Assembly: GCA_021234155.1 (NCBI GenBank)
Contig: JAJEKV010000041.1
Span: 7,882,917-7,946,916, forward strand
Source: Isoetes taiwanensis
Taxonomy: Eukaryota > Streptophyta > Lycopodiopsida > Isoetales > Isoetaceae
DNA length: 64,000 nucleotides
Direction: 5' to 3'
Shown: positions 1,710 through 55,010 of the stretch, piece after piece
Layout of the letters: each line of letters starts with the position of its first letter
How positions within the stretch are numbered: the stretch's first letter is position 1
The notes under the pieces: model-generated
Seen by the model: only the letters and a program-made list of their open reading frames with translations
What the model was told of the DNA's origin: nothing
The model's database searches: none
Made by a program: the position numbers and the translations under genes

Positions 1710-2764
1710 TAGCACAATAACAGAGGGTTACTTTTAGATTTTTATACGCTTTTTCACATAGTTTTTCTATGATTTCATTGTTGTATTCGTTGAGGTGTAC
1801 TAAATAGTATTTCTAGAGTGCATCCTTTATGGGCCGTTGATTTTCGTTGGTTGGAACAATCCGAGGGTTGTTGTCTTTCTTTGCATGTGTTTATGCATGA
1901 ACACTGTGCATGTGTATGCATGTGCATGTGCACATGCATGTGCATGTGTGTGCATGTGCATGTTCATGTGCATGTGCATGTATATGCATGTGCATGTGTA
2001 TTGTGCATGTGCATGTGTGCATGTGTGTGCATGTGTGCATATGCATGTGTACTTGCCCTCTTAGATTCTTATTGCCGGAGTGGATTTTACTACCACGAGA
2101 TGGATTTTTTGCTCACACTTACAAAGGTATTTGTTTTTTAATGTTTCTTCAGTTAGCATAATGTTTTTTTTACAAGGTATTGGTTTCCTGATTCTACAAT
2201 GTAGTGCTGCAAAACCCCCTTTTGTTTCCTTCCTAAGATTTGCTGCAGATTCAAGTTTAGGCCCTCTGTTTGCTTCCAACTCTTGGATGGCTGCCGGATT
2301 GTTCATAGCAGCCAGCCTTTAGCTTCAATCAACAAACGGATTCTTATGCACACAACAGGCGGATTATTCCATGCCCTTTTCCATGTCACACAAATCAGTC
2401 AAACAGTGGCCACAAGAATGCATTTATATTGTAGGTTTGGAACTTTAATCGAACCATAAGGTGAATCATGCATTACCTTTAAGCTAGAGATGGAGCATCC
2501 AAAATCATATGGATTGATAAACAATGGTGTCATTGTGAAAGAGAAATAGTTGTAGCGGAAGTAACAATATGTCGCATAATAACAGGGGGTTTTCTTTGTG
2601 TTGCAAACTATAATGGGATCAAATTCAAAAGCTACAGGTGATGAAAGCCTCAAATGAATTCTAGTTTTTTCCTGGTTTGAATTCTAAAATTTTTGTCACA
2701 CTGGGGAGGGGGGGGTGACGTCCCTACAGCCCCGAAGGGGCCAAAAAAAATTTTTTGCAACACA
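1710..2764. other. Insertion inside LTR-C; no gene recognised
   Basis: This sequence separates the two halves of the minus-strand LTR-C copy. It holds a CATG/TG microsatellite and a G-run near 2705-2716 followed by an AT-rich block. A minus-strand open frame around 2061-2306 ends near a GTAAGT donor-like site and could be an old exon, but I cannot recognise it. The foldback element starts at its right edge. Confidence 0.5.
1881..2052 (+). repeat. CATGTG/TGCATG microsatellite
   Basis: About 170 bases consist of alternating TGCATG and TGTGCATG words. It is open in several frames, giving Met-His-Val-Cys-rich translations in all of them, which is a composition effect and not coding evidence. Alternating purine-pyrimidine runs like this can adopt Z-DNA; that is general knowledge, not shown here. 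Confidence 0.9.
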
Positions 2765-3346
2765 AACCATTAACATCCAACATATAAAAATTAAATCCCC
2801 CAATACATAACAACTAACACATAACAACCATTGACATTAACAACCAACACATAACTACCATTGACATTAATTAACACAACCATTAGGTCCAACACATTTA
2901 AATTAAAATCCCCCTTAAACCCCCTTTGGTTTGGGTGACGTAGGGCAGCGAGAGCCCTCATAATTGTATTTTGCACGTACAAAATCAACACCATATAGTA
3001 TTCCGCTTGAAATCTTATAGTATTTTGCGAATCTTATTATACAGTATAGCAAATTTTGTACTTGCATACCCCACAAACGAGGAACTTTACGTACGGTATA
3101 GATTAAGGAATAAGGGGTGAATATGCCTATCCAACAGCTCTCGTTGCCCGGAGTCACCCCCCATGTGAATATGCACCCAAACCAAAGGGGGTTTAAGGGG
3201 GATTTTAATTTAAATGTGTTGGACCTAATGGTTGTGTTAATTAATGTCAATGGTAGTTATGTGTTGGTTGTTAATGTCAATGGTTGTTATGTGTTAGTGG
3301 TTATGTATTGGGGGATTTAATTTTTATATGTTGGATGTTAATGGTT
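2765..3346. mobile_element. Foldback/MITE element, copy 1
   Basis: The left arm (about 2765-2936) and right arm (about 3172-3346) are near-perfect reverse complements of about 170 bp. The outer edge reads AACCATTAACATCCAACATA, and the inner edges meet at CCCTTTGGTTTGGGTG / CACCCAAACCAAAGGG. The loop of about 235 bp has no coding capacity. The same arms and loop, with the loop reversed, recur at 20128-20536. It looks like a non-autonomous foldback DNA element. No clear target duplication is visible. Confidence 0.8.
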
Positions 3347-3354
3347 ATGTATTG

Positions 3355-3567
3355 GGGGTCTTCAAATCTTCAAAATTGAGTTGCTTGAATCACCTTCCTT
3401 AGCATGCTTGTGTGACCTTTGTCAAATGTCCTCACCTTGGTCTTCAAGTCTTTTCTTCACTATGTGCAGAGATGCTTTGTGCTTGTATATCTGTGTTCAA
3501 ATCAAAGTGTGAGCATGAGAATATCAGAATGTGTCTTGCTCTATCATGGTGCCATAGCATGGCAGCA
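3355..3567 (-). repeat. LTR-C fragment, 5' terminal part
   Basis: This is the reverse complement of 22263-22480, the start of the LTR at 22263. It ends at 3567 with the LTR terminus, whose first 21 bases form a 9-bp hairpin (TGCTGCCAT, loop, ATGGCAGCA, here with one mismatch). Immediately right of it the leader of element E1 begins in mid-repeat, so this LTR inserted into, or recombined with, the E1 leader and the E1 5' LTR is missing. Confidence 0.8.
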
Positions 3568-3840
3568 CCTGGGCATTTTCAAAAGTTTTGAGAATGCTTC
3601 TCGCGCACCGTGTGAGTGGTAGATACTTTTTGCTTGAAGGAATCCATTGTATTAATCTAGCAAACACTAAGGCTTGTCGGAATGGTACAACATGAAATTG
3701 CAGGTCCAAACCCTAAAATTCCCAGACCCATAAATAGACCCTTAGGGTTCTTCATTTTCACCTTTCTTCTCCAGCTAGCTGGTCTCTGGCCAAGAAGGCA
3801 ATTTTTAGGCGCTCGGAAGGCGATTGACATATTTCAAAAC

Positions 3841-4992
3841 ATGGCCCACACCAAACAGACAGACTGCTCGAGTGGTTAGGCCAGACGATTACACCAGTGC
3901 CCAAATTCTTGCAGCACAACAAAAGGCTGGGGAGACTTAAGAATGAGCTAGACAGGCCGAAAACCCTAACTCTAATCCAGATGCTAAGGAAAAAGACCAG
4001 CAGGAGGAGGACGAGCAAGAATAAACCCAAAATCCTGAAGAGCAAGAAAACCCTGAGGATCAGGGAAATGGCCAGGAGGGGGACGATGAGGAGGGCGAGC
4101 CAATATCAGAGGTGTTAGCGCGTCGGCTAAAGAAAATGGCCAAGAGGAAGAAAAAAGCGAAGAGGAAGAGAATTGCAGAGAGGGAAGAGCCCAAAAGGAC
4201 AAAGGGAAGAGCAGCAAAAACTAAAGGAGGCCAAAGGGAAGGACCCCGAAATGCCAAAGAAAACCCGGAGGAAGACAAAGTCAACACCAGCCAAAGGGGT
4301 TAGCATAAGGGAGCGAGAGCCCGACAGGCCACCATCGTCTTTATCAGAAACAGACTCGAATGAGGATGCATCAAGAGTACCCTGCCGGACAGAAGGTTCC
4401 GGACCTTCGAATCCAGGTACGAGGAGGAAGAATTTGCAACATCACCTCCATACCCGAAGTGGCCGAAACCAACAACTGAACTCAAGACCGGCTCTACAAT
4501 CCTTTGTGCTCAAGCACGAGCAGGAGTACATGAAGAAGTTGAAGGAGTACAACCAGTACATGAAGATGTACGAGGAGTACTCAAAATCCTACGAGGCAAA
4601 TAAGGTGATGTACGTGGAGGGAGGAAGGCCAACCAAGAAGAATACCTTGAAGCCGCCACCGGAGAGACCGGTACCACCTAAGAAACCCATGAAGAGAAAG
4701 GCAGACTCCTATTTTGCAAGAGCGCCTCGGGAGATTCGCCATTTTCAGAGGAGCTACGGAAGTGCTAATTCCCAGAGCTGCCTTCGCAAGACTCACCCGT
4801 AAAATCCTGCAGGAATTTGGCAAGATCAAGAGAGTAACAGATGACATGTTACTTGTGTTGCAGGAGGCAGCGGAGCAAAGGCTGGTCCAGCACTTCGAAG
4901 ATTCCCTAGCATGTTCTCTCCATGCGAAGAGAGTCACTTGTATGCCTAGAGACATGAAGTTGGCTAGGTTCATAAAGAAGGAAGATTGCTAA
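3841..4992 (+). pseudogene. Histone H3-like protein carried by element E1
   Basis: The frame starts MAHTKQT, one residue away from the universal H3 start MARTKQT. A long tail follows, first Glu/Asp/Gln-rich (about 3960-4110), then Lys/Arg-rich (about 4110-4300), then a Tyr/Lys region with EYMKKLKEYNQYMKMYEEY. From about 4724 it becomes a histone fold: REIRHFQRS (H3 REIRKYQKS), AAFARLTRKILQEF (H3 PFQRLVREIAQDF), VLQEAAEQRLVQHFEDS, HAKRVTCMPRDMKLARFI. Loop 1 has the canonical H3 length, not the longer CENH3 form. A stop soon after the start and frame changes in the tail and near 4750 disable it. At about 380 codons it is far longer than H3 (136 aa). It lies between copies of the leader repeat. 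Confidence 0.85.
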
Positions 4993-5705
4993 CTTGATGT
5001 AACTATAAAATTTTTGTAAATATAAAAATATGTTTTGGTCAAGTTGTGAGGTGTAATATTGTGTTTAATGAGGTTGTAATAATGGCATGTGCAATTGGAA
5101 TTAGTTAAATTAGACAAAAAGTCACTGTTTTGGGCCAACACCCCTCACAGAGTGCGCCAGGAGCATTTCCAAAAGTTTTGAGAATGCCTCTCGCGCATTG
5201 TGTGAGTGTTTGGCCACTGATCTATATCTAGACTTGTCCAAATATAGAAAATAAGGGCACAAACTGCCTTAACTCGACAAGATAAGTAGGATGCTATCCT
5301 TAGATTGTAATTTTAGAGCTATCTAGGACCCAAACAGGAGCCCACCCCTCACATAATGCGCCAGGACCATTTTCAAAAGTTTTGAATATGCCTCTCGTGC
5401 ACTATGTGAGTGGTCAGACTAGAGTGACCCAAATTCATCATAAGTACCTCCAAATTAGATAAAAATTTTTGCAATAGGATCATTAGGAGGTACTCTTTAA
5501 CTTAGATTACCTGTCAATTGCATAGCAGGACCTTGAAGTGATAGATATTCCCAAACCCTAAAAATCTCTCAGATTAGGGTTTTGCCTATAAATATGACCA
5601 CAACCCTCATTTGCATCCTACTCTGTCACTCCTCACTCCAAGGTGATCTTTCAACTCCCAGAGGCGCTTCTAGATCTGTTTGATAACCCCAACAACATCA
5701 GCATC
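4993..5705 (+). other. E1 leader repeats after the H3-like frame
   Basis: This holds an AT-rich spacer and then two copies of the leader hairpin repeat (about 5145-5228 and 5343-5412). Each has CTCACAGAGTGCGC-like and GCGCATTGTGTGAG-like arms. The following sequence, including AAACCCTAAA near 5553, aligns with the leader at 44660-45120 behind the primer site of the other LTR-A element. A partial copy of the same repeat also stands before the H3-like frame at 3568-3622. Confidence 0.7.
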
Positions 5706-6082
5706 ATGGCCACTTTTGCATTCAGGCGATGGTACAGTGCCACTGCTCATGTGGCTGAGGCTGACATCAACTCGATCTTCACTGTTTTCCAAAAGGAGAT
5801 CGATGTGGATGCCACTATAAACCTTTTTACCAAGAGATCATGACCGAGTTCCATGCCAAGATAGGACCTTCTCTGATAGAACTTCCCCCATGCATAGGAT
5901 ATTTTGCACCTAGAACAGCTCTCCATGCAGCTCTGAATGGCATCCCCAATATAGACAAATACCTAGAAAATAAAGCTGTTCGCATGCCAAATTACATGAC
6001 TATATCCATAAATAAGAAGAGATATTTCTCCTATACTGCAGCTGTGGCTATCTTTTTGTCCCAAACAGCCCAAACTAGATAG
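5706..6082 (+). pseudogene. Unrecognised protein, WY-module (E1 copy)
   Basis: The frame starts MATFAFRRWYSATAHV and runs through INSIFTVFQKEIDVDA before a frameshift near 5840. It continues in a second frame with KKRYFSYTAAVAIFLSQT and stops at 6080. Weak but ordered similarity is seen to 48743-49160, which has FTEWYASP, then YPFYCKELDIMA, then VSYFSLPFAFASY. I know no family with this pattern. It follows the H3-like frame in both places. It could be the N-terminal part of one longer protein with the next entry. Confidence 0.5.
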
Positions 6083-6117
6083 GAAAAGCCTCTGTTCAAC
6101 CTCTAGAGATTGAACCC

Positions 6118-6500
6118 ATGGCCACAGAAGCAGGCGAAGAGGAGCAGATGCTCCTGGACTATGAGGAGTTAGAACAGGAGGAAGAGGCCGAGGAAGGACA
6201 GGGATACGATGTGGAAGACATCATCGACGTCGACCCCATACAAGAAAGACAGCAAGCAGAGAGGACCTCCCAAGCTTCGAAGAAGGGTTGAGAGTAACAA
6301 GGACAACACCTCCACTTGGGTTAGGCATCACCAGTCTAACCCCGGTCATTATCCAAGGGGAGGAGTACCTGACGCTCCATGATATAAAGAACCTCCCGGA
6401 GTGCAGAGACAGAGGTTACAGGGTGGACGAACTCCTGCACAAGCCACTTACACAATCTGTCTTTCTTGGGGTTACGTTCAGCATCGGCAGAAACATCTGA
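6118..6500 (+). pseudogene. Acidic protein with xTPxxxxGxEYL motif (E1 copy)
   Basis: An ATG opens a strongly acidic stretch (MATEAGEEEQMLLDYEELEQ and on) that stops at 6291. The adjoining frame continues with LTPVIIQGEEYLTLHDIKN and then YRVDELLHKPL. The second motif matches ITPILVEGKEYLLLSDI at 49350-49400, where an acidic lead also comes first. No catalytic or metal-binding pattern is seen and the function is unknown. Its place between the H3-like frame and gag suggests that it belongs to the carried cassette or to a Gag N-terminal extension. Confidence 0.5.
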
Positions 6501-7539
6501 AATCGGATGTGTATGCAGCTAGAGCACCCAGGAATGTAGAACAAGATTGACAACCTCAGGAAGAACAGACACCCGCAAGGCAGTTTCAACCAAGGAACCT
6601 ATTCCAAGAGTTCGAGGCACCAACCCTATAAGAAGAGATATCGCAAATAAGATCGGATATCCATGAAATAAGAGCTTTGCTGGCAGGGGCGGCAGCAATT
6701 GGACCGAACCAGAATGTCCAACTACCCCAAACACCGGCTGGCAAGCAGACAAAGCAAAGAAGAGAAGCCGGAGAAGGAGATCGCCTAGCACGGATTCCTT
6801 CAGTTCCGACTCCGACTCTGAATCTGAAGAGCAGGAGAACGATCGCCAGGAGGGTCCCAACGTGATAGGGGCAGAATAGAAACCGACTACCAGAAGAAAG
6901 TCGACTCGGCACTGAGCAATGTGTGGAAAGCCAAGAAGTTGGAACAGTTCTCAAGGGACAACAGGTTTGAATGGAAGCCGAGGCTTGGTTGGACAAAATG
7001 AGGGAGTATGGGAATGCTTATAGAATGAAGGATAAGGACAAGGGCAGGGTAGCAACGGCCAATCTCAAGTCGGCAACCAGAATTTGGTGAAAAGGCTATG
7101 CCAAAGCCCACATGTTAAGCAGAGATAGCTGCAGATTTAAGAAGTTCTCCAAGGCATTTAAATGTCATTATGTGCCGAGGAAACACAAGTGCCATATGAT
7201 GCAACAGTTCTACAGGTTGGAGCAAGGCAATAAGACAGTCCAGAAGTACACCGAAGTGTTCATGAGGCTGAGGCTCTATGTGCCAAAGTTGAGTAAAAGA
7301 CATGCAGTAGAGGAGTATATTGAAGGCTTGAAGGAGGAGATCAGAAAGCTGGTGAGAGCAATAAACACCAGAACAGTGTCAGAAGCAGAGTCTAAAGGGC
7401 AACAAGCCCAGTAGTTGCTAGACCTCAGTATAATGCAAACTATGGAAAACAAGGGAATGCAAATTTTGGCAAGCAAGACAAGAAGCAAGTCAGCTTTGAG
7501 GATAAAGAGCAAGCAGGTGGTGCAAACTACTCCAAAGCA
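6501..7539 (+). pseudogene. E1 Gag (capsid-like) region, frameshifted
   Basis: The pieces are a Ser/Asp/Glu run (FSSDSDSESEEQEND near 6800), then VDSALSNVWKAKKLEQFSRD near 6900, then a retrotransposon Gag core near 7112-7414 with CRFKKFSKAFKCHYVP, QQFYRLEQGNKTVQKYTEVF and LRLYVP. Gag would form the particle that packages element RNA. Several stops and frame changes separate the pieces. A close relative of the core occurs at 54620-55010. Confidence 0.7.
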
Positions 7540-8112
7540 GTGAAGCAGTTCTTACAATCCATCCTCAAGGAGAAGAGGCAAGAATGTATTGAAAAGCAAT
7601 TGTGCTTCAGGTGCTTCCAGCCAGGATATCGGGCACATAACTGCCCATTTGTGATGAATGTAGTGTTAGCAGAGCTAGGAGGATGGGAGACACCCCCGGA
7701 GATCGACGAAGAAGATGCTCGCGACTACATCCAGGGTGAGTGCCAAATCTTTGCTGCTATTGACTCCGAGAATGCTGAGAGTCAGTACCAGGTCATTTCG
7801 ACAATTGGAAAAGTCAGAGCCAATTCCTTCATAGTGTTGATAGACACAGGGAGCACCCATAACTTTGCTTCGCCAAGGATGGTAGAGATGTTAAAGATGA
7901 AGCCTTTGAAGTCCAAGCCTGGACCGGTTGTGTTGGCAAGTAGGGCAATTCGACACACAGCAGGGAAGAGGATCAACTTCGACATAGACTTGTCAGGTAT
8001 CAACGTTGGAATAGAAGCAGAAGTGATGAACATCGGCAAGTATGATTTGATCAGAGGCATGGAATACCTTAGCCTGGCTGGAGCTGTGATTGATTTGGGA
8101 AGCAGAAAGTAA
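7540..8112 (+). pseudogene. E1 zinc knuckle and aspartic protease
   Basis: The open frame begins inside the Gag-Pol region. A CCHC-type knuckle reads CFRCFQPGYRAHNC, with Tyr where the family has the zinc-binding His, so binding may be lost. About 70 residues later comes the retropepsin active site FIVLIDTGSTHNF, followed by the flap and the YDLIRGMEYL end typical of plant Ty3 proteases. The protease would cut the polyprotein. The frame stops at 8112 before RT, so it is separated from the rest. Confidence 0.8.
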
Positions 8113-8120
8113 CCTTAACG

Positions 8121-9200
8121 ATGCCAGACAGCAAGATCATTGAGATAGCAGGTAAAGAAGTCACCTCAATCATGCAATGCATGTCTAGTAAGAAGTTACT
8201 TAGATGCATAAAGAAGGAGCAAGTGGCCTATGTCTTTAAGCTCGAAGTTGACGAGCAAGAAGCAGAGGAAGACAAGGAGGCCAAAGCATTGAGCAAGCTG
8301 CCAAAGCCTATAGCCAAGTTGGTGAAGGAATTCCATGATTTGTTCCCGGATGAGATTAAGCAACTTCCACCCTACAGAGGATTCAGGTGTGAAATAACAC
8401 TTGAGCCATGAACGAAGCCAACAAGTAAGGCACCCTACAGAATGTTACCTCAGGAGTTGATGGAATTGAAGAAACAATTGCAGGAGTTGCTAGACCTAGG
8501 GTTTATAAGACCTAGTGTCTCCCCATTTGGAGCGCCAATACTTTTTGTCAAGAAGAAGGATGGAAGTCTCAGAATGTGCATTGACTATCGTCAATTGAAC
8601 AAGCACACCATCAATAACAAGTATGCGCTACCTCGATCAAATGATTTGATGGATCAACTGCAAGGAGCAAAGGTTTTCTCCAAGATAGACTTGAGGTCAG
8701 GCTACCACCAGATCAGAATCAAGGAAGAGGACATCCACAAGACAACATTCAGGGCAAGGTATCGCCATTATGAGTTCACAGTGATGCCATTTGGATTGTC
8801 CAACGCCCCAATAACCTTCATGAGGCTCACGAACGATGTTTTCCGCGAGTTTCTAGACACATTCATCATAGTTTTCTTTGATGACATTCTAGTCTACAGC
8901 AAATCCTTAGAGGAGCATGCCTAACACTTGAGGAAGGTACTTGAAAAGTTGAGGACGCATCAACTTTATGCAAAGCTATCCAAGTGTCACTTCGTGACAG
9001 AAAGGGTGGAGTACTTGGGCATGTGATCACAAAAGAAGGGATTTCCACCGATCTTGCGAAGATTGAGGCGGTAATTGATTGGCCGGCACCAAAGAATATC
9101 TATGAAGTGAGGAGCTTCCTCGGCTTAGCAGGGTATTATAGAAAGTTCGTCAAGAACTTTGCAAAGTTAGCAGCAGCATTAATAGACCTCACCAAAGCGA
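8121..9200 (+). pseudogene. E1 reverse transcriptase
   Basis: A linker leads to the RT fold at about 8442: [51 protein letters not shown] and the active site [12 protein letters not shown] (YxDD-type with Phe). A stop at about 8922 interrupts the palm-to-thumb part, which resumes in another frame with [18 protein letters not shown] and [13 protein letters not shown]. These are standard Ty3/gypsy RT motifs in the right order. A stop at 8409-8411 separates the linker from the fold. Confidence 0.85.
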
Positions 9201-9665
9201 AGAAGATAAAAGATTGGGCGAGTCATTGGCAAAGAAAGGCCCATGCAACATTTGAGACATTGAAGGAAGCTTTAACGACTGCACCAGTCTTAGTGTTGCC
9301 TGATCCAGAGAAAGATAAGTTGGTGGCAACAGATGCTAGCAAGATTACAACAGGAGGGGTCTTGATGCAGGAAGGGAGGGTGGTAGCGCATGATTAAAGG
9401 AAGATGAACGACGATGAAACGCGCTACCCAACCCATGACCAAAGAGTTGCTAGCAGTGGTGAGAGCATTGAGAATATGGAGGCATTATCTATTGGGAAGA
9501 AAGTTCCAATCGGATACGGACCATCAAAGTCTACAATATGTCTTCACCCAACCACATCTCAACTTGAGGCAAAGGAGATGGATGGAGTTCCTAGAGGAGT
9601 ATGACTTTATCATTGTGTACAAGCCAGGCAAGCTCAATGTAGTTGTGGATGCGCTCTCAGGGCAT
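9201..9665 (+). pseudogene. E1 RNase H domain
   Basis: The first catalytic Asp is in [18 protein letters not shown] and is followed by [14 protein letters not shown], where the frame stops. In the next frames come TRYPTHDQ, LLAVVRALRIWRHYLLGR with the conserved Glu replaced, and DTDHQSLQYVF with the Asp-His pair. The domain ends with MEFLEEYDFIIVYKPGKLN and DALSGHP. It would remove RNA from RNA:DNA hybrids during reverse transcription. At least one stop and one frameshift break it. Confidence 0.8.
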
Positions 9666-10580
9666 CCCTTGACGACGAGAGTCCACAACAATGCCATATC
9701 AACACTCACCAGTGAGTTTGGCAAGAAGATAGAAGAGACGTTGCCTCTAGACCGAGAATTCAAGGAAGCATGGACAAGCCTTTCTAAAGAGACAAGAACG
9801 GATAAAGAGAGGGAAACCTTCAAGCATTTTAAGAAGGAAGGTAACCTATTGTACCATAAAAATAAATTGTGTGTACCAGAGTCATCAGGAGTCAGGAAGT
9901 TGATACTCCATGACACACACAATAGCCCAATAGCCGAATACGCAGGTTTTATGAAGACCTATTTTAAGATCAAAAGTAGCTACTTCTGGCCTGGCATGAA
10001 GAAGCAGATCGCCAGGTACATTCGCGAGTGCCAGCTATGCCAACGGATGAAGACGCACGGAACAACTCCAAATTCCTGGAGCTTTAGAGCCATTGCCTGT
10101 GCCGAATGCAAAATGGAAGGTAATAAGCATGGACTTTATCACAGAGCTCCCGAGAACCGTAAGGGGCAAAGATCCCTAATAGTGGTGGTGGACAAGTTGT
10201 CGAAGATGGCACATTTCGTACCGTGCTAGACAACAGACACGGTGTTAGACACCGCCATATTATTCACCAAAGAGATCTTTAGACTCCACGGGATGCCGAA
10301 AGAAATAATCTCGGATAGAAATTCAAAGTTCATGAGCGCATTCTGGCAAGATTTGTTCAGCATGATTTCAGACGAAGCTCTTTATGAGTATGGCATATCG
10401 TCCTCAGACGGATGGACAAATGGAGCGCACGAACTGAATCATAGAAGATATGTTGAGAAACTATGTCTGGAACAAGCAGTCTAAATGGGATGATTTTATT
10501 CACTTGGTGGAGTTTGCCTATAATAGCACCAAGCAAGAATCTTCCCAGATGTCCCCATTCATGATTAATTATGGGTATCA
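9666..10580 (+). pseudogene. E1 integrase zinc and core domains
   Basis: After LLYHKNKLCVP comes an integrase N-terminal zinc domain in which one His of the HHCC set is Tyr (AEYAGFMKT), with CQLCQRMK as the Cys pair. The core follows in broken form. The expected first Asp motif near 10130 is out of frame. LIVVVDKLSKMAHFVPC, GMPKEIISDRNSKFMSAFW with the second Asp, and a badly altered Glu region follow. FIHLVEFAYNS and MSPFMINYGYQ lie near 10500-10580. Four or more frame breaks make it inactive. Confidence 0.8.
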
Positions 10581-11177
10581 ATGATTGACACCAGATATGT
10601 GGCACAATCCAGTTCTAAAGTTGAAGTCTCTCAGCAGATGTTATCGGATATGCAACAGCTAGTGGAGGAGGTGAGAGGATATCTCCTAGCAGCGAGAAGC
10701 ATGCAGAAGAGCATAGCCGATAAGCACAGAACGGTAAGAGAGTTCCAAGTTGGGGACAACGTATGGCTGAAGATCAAAGTCAAGCAAGCAAAGCTCCGCA
10801 TCGGCAATTGCAAGAAACTTGCTCCAAGATGGGCTAGGCCATTCAGGATAACCAAAAGAGTAGGTAGCCAATCCTACAAGTCGGACCTGCCAGCGCATCT
10901 CAAAATCCATAGGGTCTTCCATGTAAGTCTTCTGAAGAAGCACATTCCTAATCCAAAGGAAGAATTAGAGACAACAGAGTTACTGGAAATGATGGACGAC
11001 CAACTTGAAATCGTCCCAGAGGTTCTTCTTGACAGGTCCTATAAGAAGGCAAGAAGATCCCAATTTCTCCAATACCTAGTGAAATGGACGCACTTACCTG
11101 TGGAAGACGCTACGTGGGTACTACAATCAGATTTGGAGAAATGGAGCAATGCAAGGGTCAGCTCATCACTGAAGTAG
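10581..11177 (+). pseudogene. E1 integrase C-terminus with chromodomain
   Basis: This is an open frame of 198 codons. VGDNVWLKIKV and KLAPRWARPFRI form the GPY/F-like C-terminal integrase module. VFHVSLLKKHIPNP is the usual chromovirus linker. A chromodomain then reads ILPEVLLDR-like, followed by QYLVKWTHLPVEDATWV and DLEKW. Chromodomains of this group tether integration to chromatin, often by contact with the histone H3 tail. In this element the same RNA also carries an H3-like frame. This part is intact and ends with a stop before the 3' untranslated region. Confidence 0.9.
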
Positions 11178-11896: not shown

Positions 11897-13250
11897 TGTG
11901 ACGTTCCAGCATAACATACGGTCGGAATACGTATATTATACTGCCACATCACATGTACACGTCACACGTACATGTCACCATGACAAGTACTTGAGAGCCG
12001 TAAAGAGTTGCGCCTAGGGGGCAACCTCGTACGTTGCACATGTATATTAAACATATGCAATTACACCCCTTGCCAAGTGGCAATACCCCAATTGGTCCCT
12101 TCTAACCTAACCCTAAAAGTTCATGTATAAGGAACAAAAGGGGAAACCCTAAACCTTTTCCATTTTCGCATTTCGGCTTCCCTGAGCCATTTCGGCCAAG
12201 GCAAGCTGCCATTCTGCATTGCCAGGCACCGCCGAGCCGCCTTTGCACAATAGATTCCTCAAGAGCAGCTGTCTTCAACAAGAACGAAGGCATGGACGCG
12301 ATTCGAGGAGCTGGAGCAAGCCAAGGATCAGGTACCTTACGATTCTATTGTGCAAAGCCGACCCTTAGCCCGGCAATGAGCTAGGATAGTATGTTAGATC
12401 AGTCTTAGCAGCCTTGTAGATCCTAAGATCACCAGCCGTAACGAAGGAACCTAACCATGTGTTCCATTATATGCTCTCCTGTGTATGTGGGAAGGGGGGT
12501 AGAGATCCTGAAACCTTCAGTAGCAGATGATCCTAGATAACCTCATTAATTCCCAATTAATGCGGCCCGTGTACAAGGCCCGCCTGGTTGTAAGTGGCGG
12601 GGCTAGACCGATGGAATAAGGGGGACTTGTCCCATCATTGATTCAAATACGGGCAGTGGCCCTCTAGCTGCCTGTGATGGGCATGCATGCCTCTGGAGGG
12701 GAGGTGACTCTCCTCCTGCCTCATCGGGATTGGAGAGATGCAACCCAGCAGTAGCTCCTCTGGCTACGTACCCCGCAGGCTATGGTCCAGTCCCTAGACT
12801 CTTCAACCTATTCTGCAAAGTGTGCACGGGAGGGGCGGAACTACCCAACAGCCATGTTCCTATGCTAGCCCAATCCATTCTTATGAACTCCGTGCAATGA
12901 CTTCTGGAGTCCCAAGCTGTCAGTCCATACCCTGGAGTCTGAGCCATTGGGTAAGATTCCTCATATGATGATGATGTTATTGACGTATTATTACATGTAT
13001 GTTATGGTGTAGTCACCCTTCGAGGTGACTCTATTGGTATATTGATGTCATATGCTTATGTTTACTCACGCTTCCGCAGCTAGGACGGTCCTGAGGGAAG
13101 ACGGGGCGAATGACCCATCCATTCTTCCTCATCGATCCATTGTCAAGGATTGCTGTCAGATGGATGGCCCCTGTCAGTTTGGCTGCCAGGGGGATGAACT
13201 CCGCCTTCTGATATGATGGAAGCACCGAAGAAGAAGTAGGGGACGTCACA
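11897..13250 (+). repeat. LTR-A1, 3' LTR of element E1
   Basis: The repeat starts TGTGACGTTCC right after the polypurine tract and ends GGGGACGTCACA, so the termini form the inverted repeat TGTGACGT/ACGTCACA. It is homologous to the split LTR at 24344-24848 plus 43091-44032, which is followed by a primer binding site. That confirms both ends. The 1354-bp length suits chromoviruses. Confidence 0.9.
12125..12132 (+). promoter_or_regulatory. Candidate TATA box in LTR-A1
   Basis: GTATAAGG follows AACCCTAAAAGTTCAT in LTR-A1. The equivalent place in the second LTR-A (about 24511-24518) reads CATATAAG. A TATA-like word at the same site in two diverged LTRs suggests the element promoter. No start site can be seen directly. 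Confidence 0.4.
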
Positions 13251-24343: not shown

Positions 24344-24848
24344 TGTGACGTTCCAGCATAACATACGATCCGAATACGTATATTATACTGCCGCGTCACA
24401 CGTACATGTCATCATGAGTTGTGCATGTGCATTAAACATATACAACTAAACACCCTTTGCCAAGTGGCAATAACCCATTGGATCCTTTCTAACCTAACCC
24501 TAAAAGTTCCCATATAAGGGTTTTCTTTAAACCCTAAACCTTTCTTCTTTCGCATTTAGGGTTTCCTTGAGCCATTCCGGCCAAGCCAAGACCCTAGTTC
24601 GCATTGTCAGGCATCGAAAAGCCGCATTTGCACAACAGATCTTCTAGGAGCAGCCACCTTCAGCCTTAACGAAGGCATGGACGCATTTCGAGGAGCTGGA
24701 GCGAGTCAGAGATCAGGTAAATGGTCATTTTGTTGTGCAATGCCGACTTTTAGTCCGGCAATGAGCTGGTTTAGCATGTTAGTTCAGCCTTAGAGGCCTT
24801 ATAGATCCTGAGATCACAAGCTCTAACAAAAGAACCTAACTATGGATG
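24344..24848 (+). repeat. LTR-A2, left part (split by the LINE)
   Basis: It starts TGTGACGTTCCAGC and follows LTR-A1 base for base in order up to CCTAACTATG. There it stops, about 500 bases in. The rest of the LTR is found at 43091-44032. The two parts together account for one complete LTR, so what lies between is an insertion. Confidence 0.9.
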
Positions 24849-27683: not shown

Positions 27684-30230
27684 TGTTGCCTGGCTATAGC
27701 AGGCAACATGTACAAGGCTCCTGAGCAATATCACAGGCAAAAATTTGAAGACCAAGAATACTGAGACCAGAAGACTTGAAGACAAAGATGCTGATGAAGA
27801 ACCCAAAGGATGACTTTAAGTCAAGACACAAGTTCACAACTCAAACTCCAAGGATTGAATGCATTCTCTAGCTCTGAAGGCACTTATGAGGTTTGGAAGA
27901 CCCCTGTGAAGATGGCAAGCTATGATATGGTATTTATCCTTCTCATATTGTGATGATTCTCTATTTGCCTTTTGTTCCATCATACCATCATCCTTATCCT
28001 ATTTTTTCACCCTCATTGCCTTTTCACATCCTATACCATCATGTATTTCATGTGTAACCATTTGTTTCATAGTTGACCTACCATTACCTAGGGCACATTT
28101 TCCAAGGAAGTTGTCAAACCTAAAAGTTGCCTAGCATCGAGCTCTATATCACCATTCTCATCTCATGCCTTGCCATTCCATTGTCACACACTTCATACCA
28201 AGTAGCTAAAGCAAAACATATGTGCTAAGCACAAAAAATACAAAAAACACAAAGATGCCTAGTCACCATCTCCAAGTGACATGGCATGATGACTAGATGT
28301 GCATGTCATCACCACCAAAGCTACTTTGGTCCACTCATCATTTGCTACCTTCATATCTCATTCATCATGTTGCCACCTAAGCACCAAATTTCCACATCAT
28401 CAAATGATGACTAGGCGAGTTTTGACCAAACTCAAAATTGGTCAACCAAATGATCAAATTACCTTGGGAAGTGAACCTACTAGCCTTGCTTACCCTAGTT
28501 GACCTATTTTCTATCCTTCCACTACATTTTCACCTATTGCCACCTCATCATCCATTAAGGCAAAATGCCTTGTTTGACCAACACATATCACATTGACCTT
28601 GCCCAGTCATTCATCTTTTTAACAAAAAAATCAAAATATTATTTTTCCAAAATTTGGCCTTGCCATCTTGAAGCTCCCTTGAAAATATGCCACCTGGCAC
28701 AAAAAATCTCAAAAAAAGACCCCATATAGACCTTCAAATTTCATTTCTTGGGAACCGTGCCCCATGCCAAAAAATGCAAAATTTTCCTATTCTACCCCCC
28801 CCCATCTATCTACCCTCTTATCCTCTGCCAAGTGGCGTCCCCCCTGGCATGCCAAGTCGAAACACGAGCCGAGCTTGGCGTGGGAGGAGACCACGTAATC
28901 AGGAGAAAGGAAAATAGTTCCCTATTTATACCTTGTCCCACTTTTTGATCTCTGCCTGTGGGATATATCATGTCGAACCCTAAAATTTGAATTTTCCAAG
29001 AAACCACCTTTTCGTTGAGCCAAGCGGGGGTGATCATGGCATCTGTTGGCGGTTTTGTCCTACTCCACCGAAAAGAACAGCCCAATTAGACCAAAACCGT
29101 GGCATTGATTGCGAATTTGCCAAGATCCGACCGTGGGACGGGGACTTTAAAAAGGGGTTTGTTCTACATGAATTTTTCGAGGGCCATAAAGCGGATTTGA
29201 AGACCAAGAACGTGAAGTCGTGGCGTCTCTACGAGCTTTGCGTAAGATCCTCCCGCCCGGAAATCAAAATCTCGAGGCATATGTGATGAAATATCCTTGA
29301 ATCTTTTGAAACTTGAAGTTTATTTTGATTGAGTTGTTCTTGGATGATCCAGTCGGACATTCTTGAATACCCTGTGTTGTGAATTTGCTGTTTTGACTTA
29401 ATGAAAATCGGAATTTGGGAAAAGAGTGTGTGAAAGTATGATTGAACTCATTTTGCTATGCATTGTCATTTACAGTTGAGCATAAAGGAATTGAGCAGAG
29501 TACAACTAGTGCTTGTGTAAATCTTTTTTAGAAAAAAGAAAAAATAGAAACGTCTTGCAGAACATGTGTCCTTTGAAAAAGACTAAAAATAGATCTCTTT
29601 TTAAATCATCTGTTAGTTTGTAGGCATCTCTAGTATCCAAGCAACCATCAGAGGCATCAGTAGTGAATATTGAGAGCAGAGAAAACAAAAGGAAGGGAAT
29701 TGACAATTAGAGTGCAAGGACTGTTACAGGCATTGCTATTGAAACGCGGGCAATGCATGTTACAGCAAGAATTTAGGCTTTGTTTGAACCAAGTAAGCAT
29801 ATGCACGTGACCTACAGGAACATACCTAGGTGTGGAAATGTGTTTCTACCACAGAAGATCATTGTTTAGCATTTGGCAAAATCGAGCTCACTGTCCAGGC
29901 CATTGACCAAAAATTGACCCAGTCAGGAAGTTGAGTTGTGAGAAATCTGTAAACACCTTGCTGGTAGACTTTTCACAACAGTCTCCTGGAGTTGGCTAGC
30001 ATGCTTTGGTGAAGATTTCAGGTGCTTTTGAAATAGATGCATGGTTTGGTGGATGTTTGAGCGCTGCTAGTTTCTTTAGCTTTAGGGACTCTAGTGAATT
30101 TGGTATTTCCTTGCAAAGTCATAGATGTTTTTGCGGTCTTGATTGATCACCTCAAGTGATCTGGAGGTCCTGACCATCAAAACACCTTTGTAAGGCCCCA
30201 GTTGGAGACCACCCAGGATAATCTCCAACA
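27684..30230 (+). repeat. LTR-B, 5' LTR of the inserted Ty3 element
   Basis: It starts TGTTGCCTGGCTATAGCAGG and ends ATCTCCAACA, with TGTTG/CAACA termini. The first 25 bases form a 9-bp hairpin. The left flank is CTCCC, the same five bases found in inverted form (GGGAG) beside the other LTR at 32948, which marks the target duplication. It is nearly identical to 32949-35525, so the insertion is recent. TATTTATACC near 28923 is a candidate TATA region. Confidence 0.9.
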
Positions 30231-32948: not shown

Positions 32949-35525
32949 TGTTGGAGATTATCATGGGTGGTCTCCAACTGGGGCCTTACAAAGGTGTTTT
33001 GATGGTCAGGACCTCCAGATCACTTGAGGTGATCAATCTGCACTGCAAAACATCTATGACTTTGCAAGGAAATACCAAATTCACTAGAGTCCCTAAAGCT
33101 AAAGAAACTAGCAGCGCTCAAACATCCACCAAACCATGCATCTATTTCAAAAGCACCTGAAATCTTCACCAAAGCATGCTAGCCAACTCCAGGAGACTGT
33201 TGTGAAAAGTCTACCAGCAAGGTGTTTACAGATTTCTCACAACTCAACTTCCTGACTGGGTCAATTTTTGGTCAATGGCCTGGACAGTGAGCTCGATTTT
33301 GCCAAATGCTAAACAATGATCTTCTGTGGTAGAAACACATTTCCACACCTAGGTATGTTCCTGTAGGTCACGTGCATATGCTTACTTGGTTCAAACAAAG
33401 CCTAAATTCTTGCTGTAACATGCATTGCCCGCGTTTCAATAGCAATGCCTGTAACAGTCCTTGCACTCTAATTGTCAATTCCCTTTCTTTTGTTTTCTCT
33501 GCTCTCAATATTCACTACTGATGCCTCTGATGGTTGCTTGGATACTAGAGATGCCTACAAACTAACAGATGATTTAAAAAGAGATCTATTTTTAGTCTTT
33601 CTCAAAGGACACATGTTCTGCAAGACGTTTCTATTTTTTCTTTTTTCTAAAAAAGATTTACACAAGCACTAGTTGTACTGCTCAATTCCTTTATGCTCAA
33701 CTGTAAATGACAATGCAAAAGCAGTAAATGACAATGCATAGCAAAATGAGTTCAATCATACTTTCACACACTCTTTTCCCAAATTCGATTTTCATTAAGT
33801 CAAAACAGCAAATTCACAACCACAGGGGTATTCAAGAATGTCCGACTGGATCATCCAAGAACAACTCAATCAAAATAAACTTCAAGTTTCAAAAGATTCA
33901 AGGATATTTCATCACATATGCCTCAGATTTTGATTTCCGAAGCAGGAGGATCTTCTGCAAGCTCTGTAGACGTCACGACTTCACGTTCTTGGTCTTCAAA
34001 TCCGCTTATGGCCCTCGAAAAAATTCAGTAGAACAAACCCCTTTTTTAAAGTCCCCTGTCCACGGTCAGATCTTGGCAAATTCGCAATCAATGCCACGGT
34101 TTTGGTCTAATTGGGCTGTTCTTTCAGTGGAGTAGGACAAAACCGGCCAACAGATGCCATGATCACCCCGTTTGGCTCAACAGAAAGGTGGTTTCTTGGA
34201 AAATTCAAATTTTAGGGTTCGACATGATATATCCCACAGGCAGAGATCAAAAAGTGGGACAAGGTATAAATAGGGAACTATTTTCCTTTCTCCCGGATTC
34301 GTGGTCTCCTCCCACGCCAAGCTCGGCTCGTGTTTCGACTTGGCATGCCAGGGGGGACGCCACTTGGCAGAGGATAAGAGGGTAGATAGATGGGGGTAGA
34401 ATAGGAAAATTTTGCATTTTTTGGCATGGGGCACGGTTCCCAAGAAATGAAATTTGAAGGTCTATATGGGGTCTTTTTTTGAGATTTTTTGTGCCAGGTG
34501 GTATATTTTCAAGGGAGCTTCAAGATGGCAAGGCCAAATTTTGGAAAAATAATATTTTGATTTTTTTGTTAAAAAGATGAATGACTGGGCAAGGTCAATG
34601 TGATATGTGTTGGTCAAACAAGGCATTTTGCCTTAATGGATGATGAGGTGGCAATAGGTGAAAATGTAGTGGAAGGATAGAAAATAGGTCACCTAGGGTA
34701 AGCAAGGCTAGTAGGTTCACTTCCCAAGGTAATTTGATCATTTGGTTGACCAATTTTGAGTTTGGTCAAAACTCGCCTAGTCATCATTTGATGATGTGGA
34801 GTGATGTGATGATGTGGAAATTTGGTGCTTAGGTGGCAACATGATGAATGAGATATGAAGGTAGCAAATGATGAGTGGACCAAAGTAGCTTTGGTGGTGA
34901 TGACATGCACATCTAGTCATCATGCCATGTCACTTGGAGATGGTGACTAGGCATCTTTGTGTTTTTTGTATTTTTTGTGCTTAGCACATATGTTTTGCTT
35001 TAGCTACTTGGTATGAAGTGTGTGACAATGGAATGGCAAGGCATGAGATGAGAATGGTGATAGAGAGCTCGATGCTAGGCAACTTTTAGGTTTGACAACT
35101 TCCTTGGAAAATGTGCCCTAGGTAATGGTAGGTCAACTATGAAACAAATGGTTACACATGAAATACATGATGGTATAGGATGTGAAAAGGCAATGAGGGT
35201 GAAAAAATAGGATAAGGATGATGGTATGATGGAACAAAAGGCAAATAGAGAATCATCACAATATGAGAAGGATAAATACCATATCATAGCTTGCCATCTT
35301 CACAGGGGTCTTCCAAACCTCATAAGTGCCTTCAGAGCTAGAGAATGCATTCAATCCTTGGAGTTTGAGTTGTGAACTTGTGTCTTGACTTAAAGTCATC
35401 CTTTGGGTTCTTCATCAACATCTTTGTCTTCAAGTCTTTTGGTCTCAGTATTCTTGGTCTTCAAATTTTTGCCTGTGATATTGCTCAGGAGCCTTGTACA
35501 TGTTGCCTGCTATAGCCAGGCAACA
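32949..35525 (-). repeat. LTR-D, inverted 3' LTR of the LTR-B element
   Basis: It is the reverse complement of 27684-30230 with few substitutions. It is slightly longer because of small tandem duplications near 33720 and 34800. The pol gene lies on its start side, as expected for a 3' LTR. Its outer end carries GGGAG, the inverted form of the CTCCC beside LTR-B. Confidence 0.9.
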
Positions 35526-39200: not shown

Positions 39201-39612
39201 AATCTAGCAGCACACTTCTGCATAGGGCATCTGCTTCACAATTTTCATCCCTTGGTATGTAATTCAAACTCCATTTGTTAAATTTGCTCAACCAGCTCAA
39301 GGCTTCTTCTTTCAGCAATAGCATTTCTTGGTTCTTGGCTTGATACTCACCATTGACCTGCCTGCATATTAATTGAGAGTCACCATAAATGGTTACTTCA
39401 GTTAGTCCTAATGAAATAGCTTCCTGCAAGCCAGCCAAAAGGGCTCTGTACTCAGCCATGTTGGAGGTTATGCCAACATGTATCCTGCCAACCTTTGAAA
39501 GCAATCTGTTAGCACAATCTTTGATTATAGCAGAAGAAGATGCCACCCCTAGCTTAACAGATATTCCACCATCAAACCAGATGACACCAGAGTTCTTGTG
39601 ATCATCGAGTTA
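36265..39612 (-). CDS. Ty3 Pol: extra RNase H, RT, degenerate RNase H, integrase
   Basis: This is a single undamaged frame of about 1,100 codons. In order: a plant-type RNase H with IWFDGG, MAEYRALLAGL, IYGDSQLI and PRDENCEADAL; RT with TIRICIDYRDLNK, MPFGLMNASATF and active site VFLDDLCLG; a second RNase H in which the first Asp site reads YISITNKAVG and the late Asp-His is MHQNPL; and integrase with CHEGICGGHFA, CHKCQIHG, LVATDYFTKW, IVSDRGTQF and GNGQAES, ending LKRYWEQHICLILFE. The RT-linked RNase H has thus lost two acidic residues while the extra one keeps its set. The frame has no leading Met at 39612; the first is at 39546. It would be made as a Gag-Pol fusion. It is now separated from gag by the inversion. 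Confidence 0.9.
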
Positions 39613-43090: not shown

Positions 43091-44032
43091 GATGATGATG
43101 GTGATTCCACTCTGTGCTCTCCTATGTATTGGGAAGGGGGGTGGAGACCCTGAAAGCCTCTGTAGCAGATGATCCTAGATAGCCTCATTAATTCCCAATT
43201 AATGCAGCCCGTGCACAGGAGCCCGCCTGGTTGTGGGTGGCGGGGCTAGACCGGTAAATAAGGGGGACTTGTCCCATCACAGATTGATCCCTCTGGTGTA
43301 TAAAGCCCACCGGGGATCTTAGTGGGCTAGGCTTAATGGTTTGCCACTGCCTGTGGGCAAGGCATGAGCTCGACACCTCTTGGGTGATGCGTCACCTTCA
43401 ATGGGGTTCAAGTCGAATACGGGCAGTGGCCCTCTAGCCGCCTGTGATGGGCATGCATGCCTCTGGAGGGGAGGTGACTCTCCTCCTGCCTCATCGGGAC
43501 TGGGGAGATGCAACCTAACAGTAGCCCTCTTGGCTATGCACCCGGCAGGCTACGGTCCGGTCCCAATATTTTTCAACCTACTCTGCAAAGTGGGCACGGG
43601 AGGGGCGGTGGAGTGGACTACCCAACAGCCATGTTCTTATGCCAACCCAATCCAATTGCCATGAATTCGGTCTGCATTGACTTCTGGAGACCCAAGCCGT
43701 CAGTCGATCCCCCATGAGTCTGAGCCCGGGGTAGGATTCCCTTTTGTTGCTATTATTTATGTTGATGTTGTTATGCATGTTATATTATGATGTGTTCACC
43801 CTTCGGGGTGACTTTCTTGATGTATTGATGTCATGTGCTCATGTTTATTCGTGCTTCCGTAGCTAGGTCGACCCGAAGGAAGACGAGACAAATGACCCAT
43901 CCACTCTTCCTCACTGACCCAGTTCTTGGGATTGGCGCCAGGTGGATGGCCCCTGCCAGTTTGGCTGTCAGGGGGATGAACTCCGCCTTCTGATACGATG
44001 GGAGCATCGTAGAGAAAGTAGGGGACGTCACA
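43091..44032 (+). repeat. LTR-A2, right part
   Basis: It resumes with TGCTCTCCTATGTATTGGG, matching LTR-A1 from about 12470, and ends GGGGACGTCACA. A local stretch near 43280-43400 (GATCCCTCTGGTGTATAAAG and on) is absent from LTR-A1, so the copies differ by an insertion or deletion. Together with 24344-24848 it makes one LTR of about 1.45 kb. Confidence 0.9.
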
Positions 44033-47527: not shown

Positions 47528-48319
47528 ATGGCAAGAACTAAGCAAACGCAAGGATCCATCCAGTGGTGTAAGGGACGGTGATTACATTAGTCCGCCTCCT
47601 TCATCGAATCTGAAGTCTCGATAGAGATTCTCCTCCTCCGACCATGCCTAACGAAGACCCGGAAAAGAAATCTGCATGACAGCGGGCGGAGAAGCGCTCC
47701 GTGAGTAAGTAGGGAGGTGCACTCCGGTTGGAGACGGAGGATGAAAATGTGAGAGACCGACGAGCGTAATATGGCCGGATTAATTATTGAGCAGCCGCTT
47801 CTTGCTCTTATCGCTCCTCCTGCTCCCTCCTGTGGAGGGCCAAAACTTCAAATCAAGGAGGAGGCCCAACGCCCAAAGGGGAAGGCCACCGTAATGTGAG
47901 TGGAGGGAAGAAGAGTCGGCCGAGGAACAACCCGCAAATCTTTGGGGGAGGAAGGCGGTAGGAAGAGTCGCCGAGCAAATGCGCTCCAAATCTTTGGGGT
48001 GGGTGAGGGTAGTGGAAGGGCGGAAGAAAGCACGGCATTAAAGAGCTTCGCGAGATTAAGAAGTATCGAAGAAGCAACCAGATGGTCATTACTGCGTCTC
48101 CCATTTGCCCGGGCTCGTGAAAGAGATTACGCAAGAGTGTGGTGCGATACATCATACCGATTCTGAAATTCAAGCAAGCGCCTTAAATGCTCTTCAAATG
48201 GCTTTGGAAGCGGTTGGTGTCGGTCTGTTCGAGGACTCGTGACTTGCGACAATACATGTCAAGCGGGTGACTTGTCATGCCCAAGGACATGCGCCTCGTC
48301 TTACGCATAAGGGATCCCG
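47528..48319 (+). pseudogene. Histone H3-like pseudogene in element T
   Basis: It starts MARTKQT, identical to the H3 tail start, and then runs into a stop after 17 codons. After about 480 bases of decayed linker the histone fold is plain in three frames: GIKELREIKKYRRSNQMVI (H3 VALREIRKYQKSTELLI), LLRLPFAR, VKEITQECGAIHHTDSE, IQASALNALQMALEAVGVGL with FEDS, IHVKRVTC and MPKDMRLVLRIRD. Loop 1 is about four residues longer than in canonical H3, as in many CENH3 proteins. It shares FEDS, RVTCMP and the long linker with the E1 copy, so the two belong together. Several frameshifts and stops make it non-functional. Confidence 0.8.
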
Positions 48320-49180: not shown

Positions 49181-50151
49181 TATATGTGATGATGCTGACT
49201 ATGGCGTAGAAATGGAGATAGATCTACAAGAAGAAGAGCAAGAATATAGGAGTTTTAGCCGGCGACGACGGGCCTTGGGTGAACCAGGAGGAGAGAGATG
49301 ATCCCGAAGGTGATGAGGATGGGGATGAGGATGAAAAGAAGTTGTCTGACATAACGCCAATTTTAGTGGAAGGCAAAGAATACCTATTGCTAAGTGATAT
49401 ACTGAGGAACCCGTCTTTGTTACGAATGTGTGCTAGGGAAGACGAGCTTATCAGTACCTTGGCCGAATGGGTAAACCTAGGCCTAGATTTTGAAGAGGAT
49501 TTGAACAAAGAGATGTTTGAAGTGTCTAATTATACCGGCAATGCTATAAAGCTTAAAGAAGCCTATGACAGGCTGGAGTCTCGATTTGCTCAAGAGGAGG
49601 CGAATCTACCAACGGAAGAAGAATTCCAGCGTCTCCGTGCAAAGCTGCCAACATGATCTACAGGTTTGGCAGGCCCTTCAGTCAATCGCGGTAGCATAAG
49701 CCTCATAGATGAGGAGAAATGTGAAGAAGATAAGCTTGAGGGTTCTTATTTGTGGGAAGTGGATGATTTTTCTTGCCGACATGCACGCGGGGGATAGGAA
49801 AGATTGAAGGACTCTACATTGTTACGATATATCTCAAGATTCGTTAATGGGGAGATAATCTTTCAGTCCAAAAGGTGCAGAGTTTGTCTATTACATCCGT
49901 GCATTATGCATGTTCGGGAACCATTCCCAATTGGCATCAAACACTGAAAGGGTGATAGCAATTCGGCGGGATATGTGCTACAATATTTTGACGACCAAGC
50001 CGGTCTGCGGGCGAGCAATATGTTAAATTTTTTAGCTGCTGGCTTGACTCACCCAAGGTTGGAAGCTGGGGTCGATAACATGGAAGTCATTGCCTTGTTG
50101 GATCAGTGCGGCAGGGGATTGAAAGAGCATGAAATTGACGACGAAGCTTGA
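49181..50151 (+). pseudogene. Acidic protein with xTPxxxxGxEYL motif (element T copy)
   Basis: An acidic lead (ERDDPEGDEDGDEDEKK) precedes ITPILVEGKEYLLLSDI and an alpha-helical part (LGLDFEEDLNKEMFEVSNYT). From 49279 one frame remains readable to 50151 with only three stops (near 49654, 49798 and 49948), two of them TGA as would arise from CGA. The later part has RYISRFVNGEIIFQ, CRVCLLHPCIMHV and a C-terminus LDQCGRGLKEHEIDDEA. The motif and acidic lead match 6118-6500 in E1. Function is unknown. Recent loss is suggested by the small number of stops. Confidence 0.55.
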
Positions 50152-54379: not shown

Positions 54380-55010
54380 CCAGATGGCACAACTGGTGCA
54401 ATAGGCTATCCCATTCATGAGGGGAGAGGGGTATGGACCAATGCCACCCCAAAAGGCAGAACAACAACAGAAGAGCCAGCCAGAATAAGAGTTTGCACTC
54501 GTAGCACCTAGGAATAGGAAGAGGAAGAGAAGAAACATGAAAAGCCATAGCCCTTCGAGCTCGGATATCAGTCCAGATAGCGAGTCTGACAACAGCTCGG
54601 ATAGTGAATGTATGCAAAGTCTAATAAGCTCAAGAGAAACAACTGCAGGTTTAAGACTTTTAGTAAGGCCTTCTGCAAGCATTACATTCCTCACTCATAC
54701 ACAAGCAGGCAAATACAACAATTTTACCGCCTCGACATGGGGATCTTGTCAATGGCCAAGTATACAGAGGAGCTATGAGACTGCGACTAAATATACTAAG
54801 GATTACGAAAAGGCAAGCAATGGAATGCTATATTGGAAAATTGAACAGTAACATCAAGAGGATAGTTCGTGCCATCAATCCTAGGACGGTAGGGGATGCA
54901 AACAAGGCATTGAGCTTGGAAGAGGCACCTCCAACACCAGTACAAAAACAATCCATCTACACCAAAGGCAAGTGGGTCCTTATACCGCTAATATGTATAA
55001 ATTGAGGTCC
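54380..55010 (+). pseudogene. Ty3 chromovirus gag fragment in element T
   Basis: The start is Ser/Asp-rich (SSSDISPDSESDNSSDSE), as in E1 gag. The core reads NNCRFKTFSKAFCKHYIP, QIQQFYRLDMGILSMAKY and then, after a stop, KRIVRAINPRTVGDA. These match CRFKKFSKAFKCHYVP, QQFYRLEQGNKTVQKY and KLVRAINTRTVSEA of E1. Pol motifs are absent. It is a broken insertion or a captured piece. Confidence 0.65.

Follow-up and report, generated by a model that had tools for sequence, protein, structure and literature searches.

A histone H3-like gene ahead of gag in Ty3/gypsy chromoviruses of Isoetes taiwanensis and its possible role against silencing

The nearest precedent for a transposon-borne H3 comes from Pyrenophora tritici-repentis, where a hAT DNA transposon carries an H3-like gene, H3L (PMC3538342). 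As the passages on H3L in that paper describe, the gene lies inside a transposable element, has multiplied with it and has an extra ORF beside it, all of which resembles the elements reported here. However, the fungal hAT has terminal inverted repeats and about 26 nearly identical, recent copies, and its authors doubted a function, whereas the carrier in this study is a plant LTR retrotransposon with three diverged families, long-term purifying selection and a large N-terminal domain. Instead of a hAT transposase and terminal inverted repeats, it has a retroviral-type pol and LTRs.

An orchid lineage of Ty3/gypsy elements has been described whose extra ORF contains a domain of host type that was captured; the domain is an AlkB-type m6A demethylase, an RNA demethylase and not a histone as here (PMC9289625). 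In the survey of 121 angiosperm genomes and 25,565 consensus sequences in the same paper, 15 extra domain types were found, and the text of that section names no histone (PMC9289625). Core-histone folds also occur in viral genomes, such as the H4 of bracoviruses and the histones of giant viruses (PMC9145170), and the bracovirus H4 enters host nucleosomes and acts via its tail, as described in the relevant part of PMC5423620. Those carriers are DNA viruses, whereas ours is an LTR retrotransposon; the term 'retro' is absent from the main text of the review of viral histones (PMC9145170).

Plant chromoviruses share gag, protease, reverse transcriptase (RT), RNase H, integrase and chromodomain with the elements reported here. 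According to the relevant sections of PMC3350952 and PMC6317226, their chromodomain reads histone tails made by others or has no known partner, whereas here the element encodes a histone too; extra ORFs are noted there mainly for the OTA clade, which is outside the chromoviruses. The word 'histone' is absent from the main text of the Isoetes genome papers PMC8566536 and PMC10541799. The initial annotation of this DNA, made from the sequence alone, knew of no plant retrotransposon with an H3, and our searches of the open-licence papers of PubMed Central showed no histone gene in any LTR retrotransposon. The elements belong to a known kind, that of genes captured by transposons, among which there is one earlier case of an H3.

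Two decayed elements and their relatives in the genome

The window, the whole 64-kb stretch of I. taiwanensis DNA that was analysed, contains two decayed elements, E1 and E2 (Table 1). An H3-like gene lies 5' of gag in both, which makes two such elements within the 64 kb. The copy in E2 had not been seen in the initial annotation.

Table 1. Features of elements E1 and E2 in the window
Feature	Position	Strand	Remarks
E1 H3-like gene, N-terminal peptide MAHTKQTDCSSG	3841..3876	+	ATG at 3841; starts MAHTKQT
E1 H3-like gene, lengthened tail (acidic and basic stretches)	3877..4692	+	Frame broken
E1 H3 histone fold	4693..4989	+	Homology begins at about residue 17 of that frame
E1 coding remnant at the ORF2 position	5706..6079	+	ORF2 homology suggestive only; hhalign P-value 0.016, probability 2.8%
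E1 gag piece	7112..7411	+	Pfam Retrotrans_gag E 5.2e-12
E1 aspartic protease piece	7540..8109	+	Pfam RVP_2 E 1.2e-7
E1 reverse transcriptase piece	8442..8921	+	RVT_1 E 3.1e-29; 82% amino acid identity to the RT of L018
E1 RNase H and integrase zinc-binding piece	9414..10226	+	Pfam
E1 integrase end with chromodomain	10581..11174	+	Chromo E 7.6e-8
E1 3' LTR, TGTGACGTTCC...GACGTCACA	11897..13250	+	
E2 5' LTR (part)	43105..44032	+	82-88% identity to E1 LTR
E2 H3-like gene, N-terminal peptide MARTKQTQGSIQW	47528..47566	+	ATG at 47528; MARTKQT
E2 H3 fold remnants, different frames	48013..48275	+	48013-48117, 48060-48239
E2 ORF2 remnants	49222..50023	+	49222-49653, E 4e-4; 49859-50023, E 1.1e-3
E2 gag remnant	54611..54933	+	

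In E1, an H3-like frame had been described that runs from MAHTKQT to an H3 fold. The start, the fold and the stop at 4992 stand, but the frame is not a single one. The ATG at 3841 and the fold at 4693-4989 are in the same frame, with the stop codon at 4990-4992; upstream of the fold, however, there are 17 stops in the ATG frame, and the acidic and basic stretches of the tail are in other frames. For comparison with MAHTKQTDCSSG, the N-terminus of host H3 is MARTKQTARKS, and the start of E2 matches its first seven letters exactly. In the profile search that had been proposed as a check, the E1 fold matched Pfam Histone with E 5.9e-17 (62.5 bits vs a cut-off of 26.4), and its top match among PDB chains was histone H3.3 (E 7.8e-17). 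The fold agrees with host H3 at 40 of 80 positions (50%), and a tblastn search with it found E2 at 48114-48275 (E 2.3e-5). The gag and pol pieces lie downstream on the same strand, so that the gene stands ahead of gag as had been annotated. The E1 remnant at the ORF2 position gave no match to ORF2 in a further search that found the ORF2 remnants of E2. No 5' LTR of E1 was found within the window, where 3355-3567, immediately upstream of E1, is part of another repeat; in E2, the primer binding site TGGTATCAGAGC is at 44034. Because its H3 frame is broken, its pol is in pieces and its 5' LTR was not found, E1 is a truncated, dead copy.

The genome (1,658,258,908 bases or 1.66 Gb, 1110 contigs) was searched with the Pfam Histone profile, and the best 150 of 8705 loose candidates were scored. 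All 150 passed the Pfam cut-off. About 15 of them (the first 15) resemble normal histones; among the remaining 135, an open frame of at least 200 aa was found in 93, of at least 300 aa in 55 and of at least 400 aa in 36. We fetched 30 places from among the best histone matches, chosen mostly for long open frames, 20 of them with 10 kb and 10 with 1.6 kb of sequence. Such intact relatives had been proposed as the place to look for an H3 frame, and they have it: the N domain of the H3 ORF of one copy, L018, has a match in all 30 places (tblastn, E of 1e-4 or better), and the H3 ORF exceeds 300 aa in 24 of 30. The alternative, that the H3-like part of E1 is a one-off host pseudogene, was rejected, as E2 and the 30 further copies carry H3-like sequence.

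The H3 ORF lies 3' of the primer binding site and 5' of gag, and has moved with the element. In 19 of the 20 10-kb stretches, two or more parts are on one strand in the order H3-ORF2-ORF3-gag-RT-chromodomain, the exception being L015, with H3 only. ORF2 was found in 18 stretches, ORF3 and gag in 17 each, RT in 14 and the chromodomain in three; parts are missing partly because the stretches end. The primer binding site is upstream of the H3 ORF in 14 of 20 stretches, at a distance of 596-779 nt from the ATG in the 11 copies with a known ATG. The ends of L018 are complete: the LTRs TGTGACGTTCC...GCGTCACA have the termini TGTG...CACA, a purine tract precedes the 3' LTR on its 5' side, and CAATC stands on both outer sides as a 5-bp target duplication. 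Despite its LTRs and target duplication, L018 is without ORF2 and ORF3. Gag, aspartic protease, RT, RNase H and integrase follow in Ty3 order in L018 and in the pieces of E1 (Pfam), and after the integrase of L018 there is a chromodomain (Chromo E 6.3e-8); in the PDB, the Chd1 chromodomain was matched with E 1.4e-6. By domain order, chromodomain, LTRs, primer binding site and target duplication, the elements are Ty3/gypsy chromoviruses.

The LTR pair of L018 differs at 48 of 1786 alignment columns, with 131 gap columns. For L013 and L012, only parts of the LTR pairs could be compared, and they differ at 51 of 1429 (46 gaps) and 80 of 1402 (60 gaps) columns, respectively. In L019, direct repeats at 1-2229 and 5801-8012, which are 95.5% identical, flank the H3 ORF and ORF2, and neither gag nor RT was found within the 10-kb stretch. 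L019 is possibly a non-autonomous element with the H3-ORF2 cassette alone.

The H3 ORF and its history

In families A, B and C, the H3 ORF encodes about 400-460 aa and starts with M-x-x-x-K (MPRFK, METPK and MANTK; cf. MARTK). A conserved, element-specific N domain of about 200 aa is followed by a charged linker and by the C-terminal part of H3 from the PHRYRPGT region. The canonical short H3 tail with K4, K9 and K27 is absent, and about 300 residues stand in its place. It had been supposed that acidic and basic stretches lengthened the tail. The charged linker agrees with this, but the intact families also have the conserved domain, which the supposition did not cover. N domains are 29-38% identical between families in the pairs compared, whereas the fold differs little. 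One copy per family matched Pfam Histone with E 2e-43, 2.8e-41 and 4.5e-42.

A residue table was made for those 25 of the 30 fetched places whose sequence agreed with a set text pattern. C110, H113, A114, R116, D123, L126 and I130, which we take to be H3-H3' interface positions, are retained in each of the 25 folds. L017 and L019, outside the table, belong to an alignment in which these columns are likewise invariant. E1 retains seven of the seven (hypergeometric P 0.006). Common to all 25 element folds are T107A, the loss of E105 (S or G) and a change of S86. The ARKS motif is kept in family C only. The alignment also has one invariant lysine, which lies in a [GA]K[ST]xP motif and can, in our reading, be matched to K27 or K14. 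The idea that the K9 and K27 sites are completely lost was dropped in view of ARKS in family C and the invariant lysine.

AlphaFold gave a mean pLDDT of 56 and a pTM of 0.41 for the H3 protein (17 sequences), with pLDDT of 70-90 in much of the N domain and about 40-47 in the fold region, and a mean pLDDT of 43.8 and a pTM of 0.28 for ORF2. Foldseek found no match to either model in the PDB at E 0.001 or better. The assignment of the H3 fold is made from sequence rather than from the AlphaFold model. In sequence searches of the PDB, ORF2 had no match and the best match of the N domain (E 0.22) was unconvincing; in Pfam, ORF2 had no match and ORF3 nothing convincing. The N domain of the intact families was not detected in E1 and E2 by sequence search.

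A protein database was also searched. With the E1 fold (383-residue query), 55 candidates of 0.55-1.75 times the query length were obtained, none at E 0.001. With the H3 protein of L018, 4661 of 7931 scored proteins matched at E 0.001 or better; no relative of the N domain was among the 120 matches listed, with a maximum query coverage of 44%, and as the H3 fold dominates this list, such a relative may be hidden there. ORF2 had one relative among 7993 candidates scored (P0122, 471 aa, 42% identity over the whole length). It is located on a 2953-base ENA contig, and the ORF2 family may reach past the host genome. No relative of the E1 fold or ORF2 was found in viral contigs, and plasmids gave no match.

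The H3 ORF of families A, B and C is under strong purifying selection. Median dN/dS ratios (Nei-Gojobori, within families) of the fold are 0.036 in A (dS 0.74), 0.006 in B (dS 0.49) and 0 in C (one pair), values that are biased downward because the copies are the top of the histone-profile ranking. This bias is smaller for the N domain, which the Histone profile does not score and which has medians of 0.145 in A (with 50 of 120 saturated pairs excluded), 0.105 in B and 0.088 in C; those of the linker are 0.20, 0.11 and 0.18, respectively. Purifying selection on intact frames had been named beforehand as support for a function, and within families the fold ratio is at most 0.04. The three families hold a fold identity of 84-90%, with their silent sites close to or at saturation. 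Between-family dN/dS was not used because most pairs have saturated silent sites; for the N domain of A and B, 93 of 96 pairs are saturated and the median of the three usable pairs is 1.40. The folds of seven copies compared with four host H3 genes have 85-90% identity, and their silent sites are saturated, with differences of 0.81-1.02.

A tree of 51 folds, which also includes H3 of the host and of other eukaryotes, unites all 25 element folds from families A, B and C in a single group (support 95/98, with the bootstrap not fully settled), and therefore a single capture is supported for these families. The branch of E1 is very long (2.9), and its grouping with the other element folds was not rejected (p-AU 0.113). 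Judged by its fold, E1 belongs to a diverged lineage. In both E1 and E2 the start peptide of H3 is kept and the gene is at the same position. It is likely that the H3 part was captured from a plant host long ago, and this was probably a single event. Capture by the element line had already been suggested in the initial annotation, and the relatives, with their H3 frame, N domain and strong constraint, agree with it. Loop 1 of CENH3 is longer than that of H3. An origin from CENH3 was rejected, as the fold aligns to host H3 without gaps and has no loop-1 insertion.

The H3 ORF and ORF2 act like a single cassette that is combined with an exchanged pol. The nearest neighbour belongs to the same H3 family for 20 of 20 N domains, 18 of 18 ORF2, 13 of 16 ORF3, 11 of 17 gag and six of 11 RT sequences, with shuffle p of 0.000, 0.000, 0.003, 0.038 and 0.262, respectively. 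For example, the RTs of L012 (family A) and L013 (family B) are 99% identical as proteins with dS of 0.25, whereas their H3 folds differ at 0.88 of silent sites. Because the two ORFs are co-inherited while RT is shuffled, cooperation of the H3 protein with ORF2 is suggested.

Possible roles of the element H3

Core histones are the host's normal route to mark and silence transposons. We propose with moderate confidence that E1 is a decayed chromovirus whose group has, as its first gene, an H3 likely captured from a plant host, the product of which is predicted to enter host nucleosomes and may act against silencing. Since many copies have an open gene and selection appears to restrain its changes strongly, the element likely uses its H3 to shape host chromatin. 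The pattern of constraint, in which fold and interface are kept and the tail is replaced, would fit a protein that must fit a nucleosome. The element fold would pair with host H4 and with a second H3 and would bind DNA as H3 does. The element's own domain would thereby stand where the modifiable tail of host H3 would be, and nucleosomes with the element H3 on or near element DNA would miss much of the tail that silencing enzymes mark. ORF2 is perhaps a partner of the element domain on such nucleosomes. New copies may in this way stay expressed long enough for the element to spread.

A retrotransposon that has long kept an H3 of its own under strong constraint would directly attack the host's histone-marking layer. 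It would make testable whether a parasite is able to build its own nucleosomes, and the element H3 ORFs are natural replacements of the H3 tail under selection. Several results count against the anti-silencing role: the N domain was not detected in E1 and E2, L018 is without ORF2 and ORF3, the loss of tail marks is not clean (ARKS and the invariant lysine), the AlphaFold model is weak and has no PDB match at E 0.001 or better, and the choice of copies by best Pfam scores lowers the fold dN/dS.

It is rather unlikely, yet consistent with the retained nucleosome-competent residues, that the H3 serves as an integration tether: the fold would enter chromatin, and the N domain or ORF2 would recruit the integration complex so that target sites are marked. 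By sequence, the integrase chromodomain resembles plant type II and is without the first and last cage aromatics, and for type II chromodomains the relevant section of PMC6317226 gives no identified partner; the element H3 is possibly such a partner. Co-inheritance of H3 and ORF2 would also suit a tether. However, specific partners should co-inherit, and RT, which belongs to the same pol as the integrase, is not tied to the H3 family (6/11, p 0.26), which is weakly against a tight integrase partner.

A role in packaging or nuclear delivery, in which the basic fold binds element RNA or DNA in particles or histone chaperones and importins carry the complex into the nucleus, seems to us quite unlikely. 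Large DNA viruses encode histones for packaging, as the relevant part of PMC9145170 describes, and the element fold is basic and keeps its DNA-contact residues. A near-canonical fold including the H3-H3' interface, however, exceeds the needs of a generic basic binder, and no H4, H2A or H2B gene was seen next to the H3 ORF in the fetched stretches.

We regard as distinctly improbable an extension in which the element has its own chromatin code: the element H3 would be deposited on the element's DNA or at selected sites, and the integrase with its cage-less chromodomain, or ORF2, would read the nucleosome. If true, at least some type II chromodomains would gain their missing partner, and one parasite would make both the mark and its reader.

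Passive hitch-hiking, in which the element acquired and multiplied a host H3 gene that serves no function for it, is highly improbable. The broken copies in E1 and E2 would agree with it, as would the Pyrenophora H3L copies, which are nearly identical and, in the passages on them, have no function shown (PMC3538342). Against it are the within-family constraint (at most 0.04 in the fold at dS of about 0.5-0.7 and 0.09-0.15 in the N domain) and three families that hold their fold identity at silent sites near or at saturation. That host genes for H3 variants or CENH3, adjoining elements by chance, account for the matches is scarcely credible: CENH3 proteins also have long, fast-changing tails, but this reading is refuted for the sampled copies by the element order in 19 of 20 stretches, by the LTRs and target duplication that enclose one copy and by a fold without the CENH3 insertion, and a host gene adjoining the element was rejected on these grounds.

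Hairpins and other repeats in the window

Long hairpins are predicted among the reading frames of E1 at 3555-3640, 5130-5220 and 5335-5425. In E2, four predicted hairpins are in a row 5' of the H3 gene (44235-44950), and further ones are at 48520-48600 and 50250-50330; for E1 and E2 together, the predicted energies are -21 to -48 kcal/mol. When intergenic regions of L028 and L025 (three each) and of L016 and L018 (one each) were folded, no comparable hairpin was seen by eye.

Just 5' of E1, a unit at 2758-3354 has terminal inverted repeats that are about 181 bp long and 98% identical; it resembles a small DNA transposon and sits inside another repeat. An additional piece at 24344-24844 has 77-80% identity to the E1 LTR. 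On the minus strand, 36268-39609 encodes 1114 aa without interruption; this frame matches RT, with 41% to that of the E1 group, and looks like a separate LTR element, apparently far better preserved. The window also contains an inverted pair of 2.6 kb (27684-30230 and 32949-35525) with 96.5% identity.
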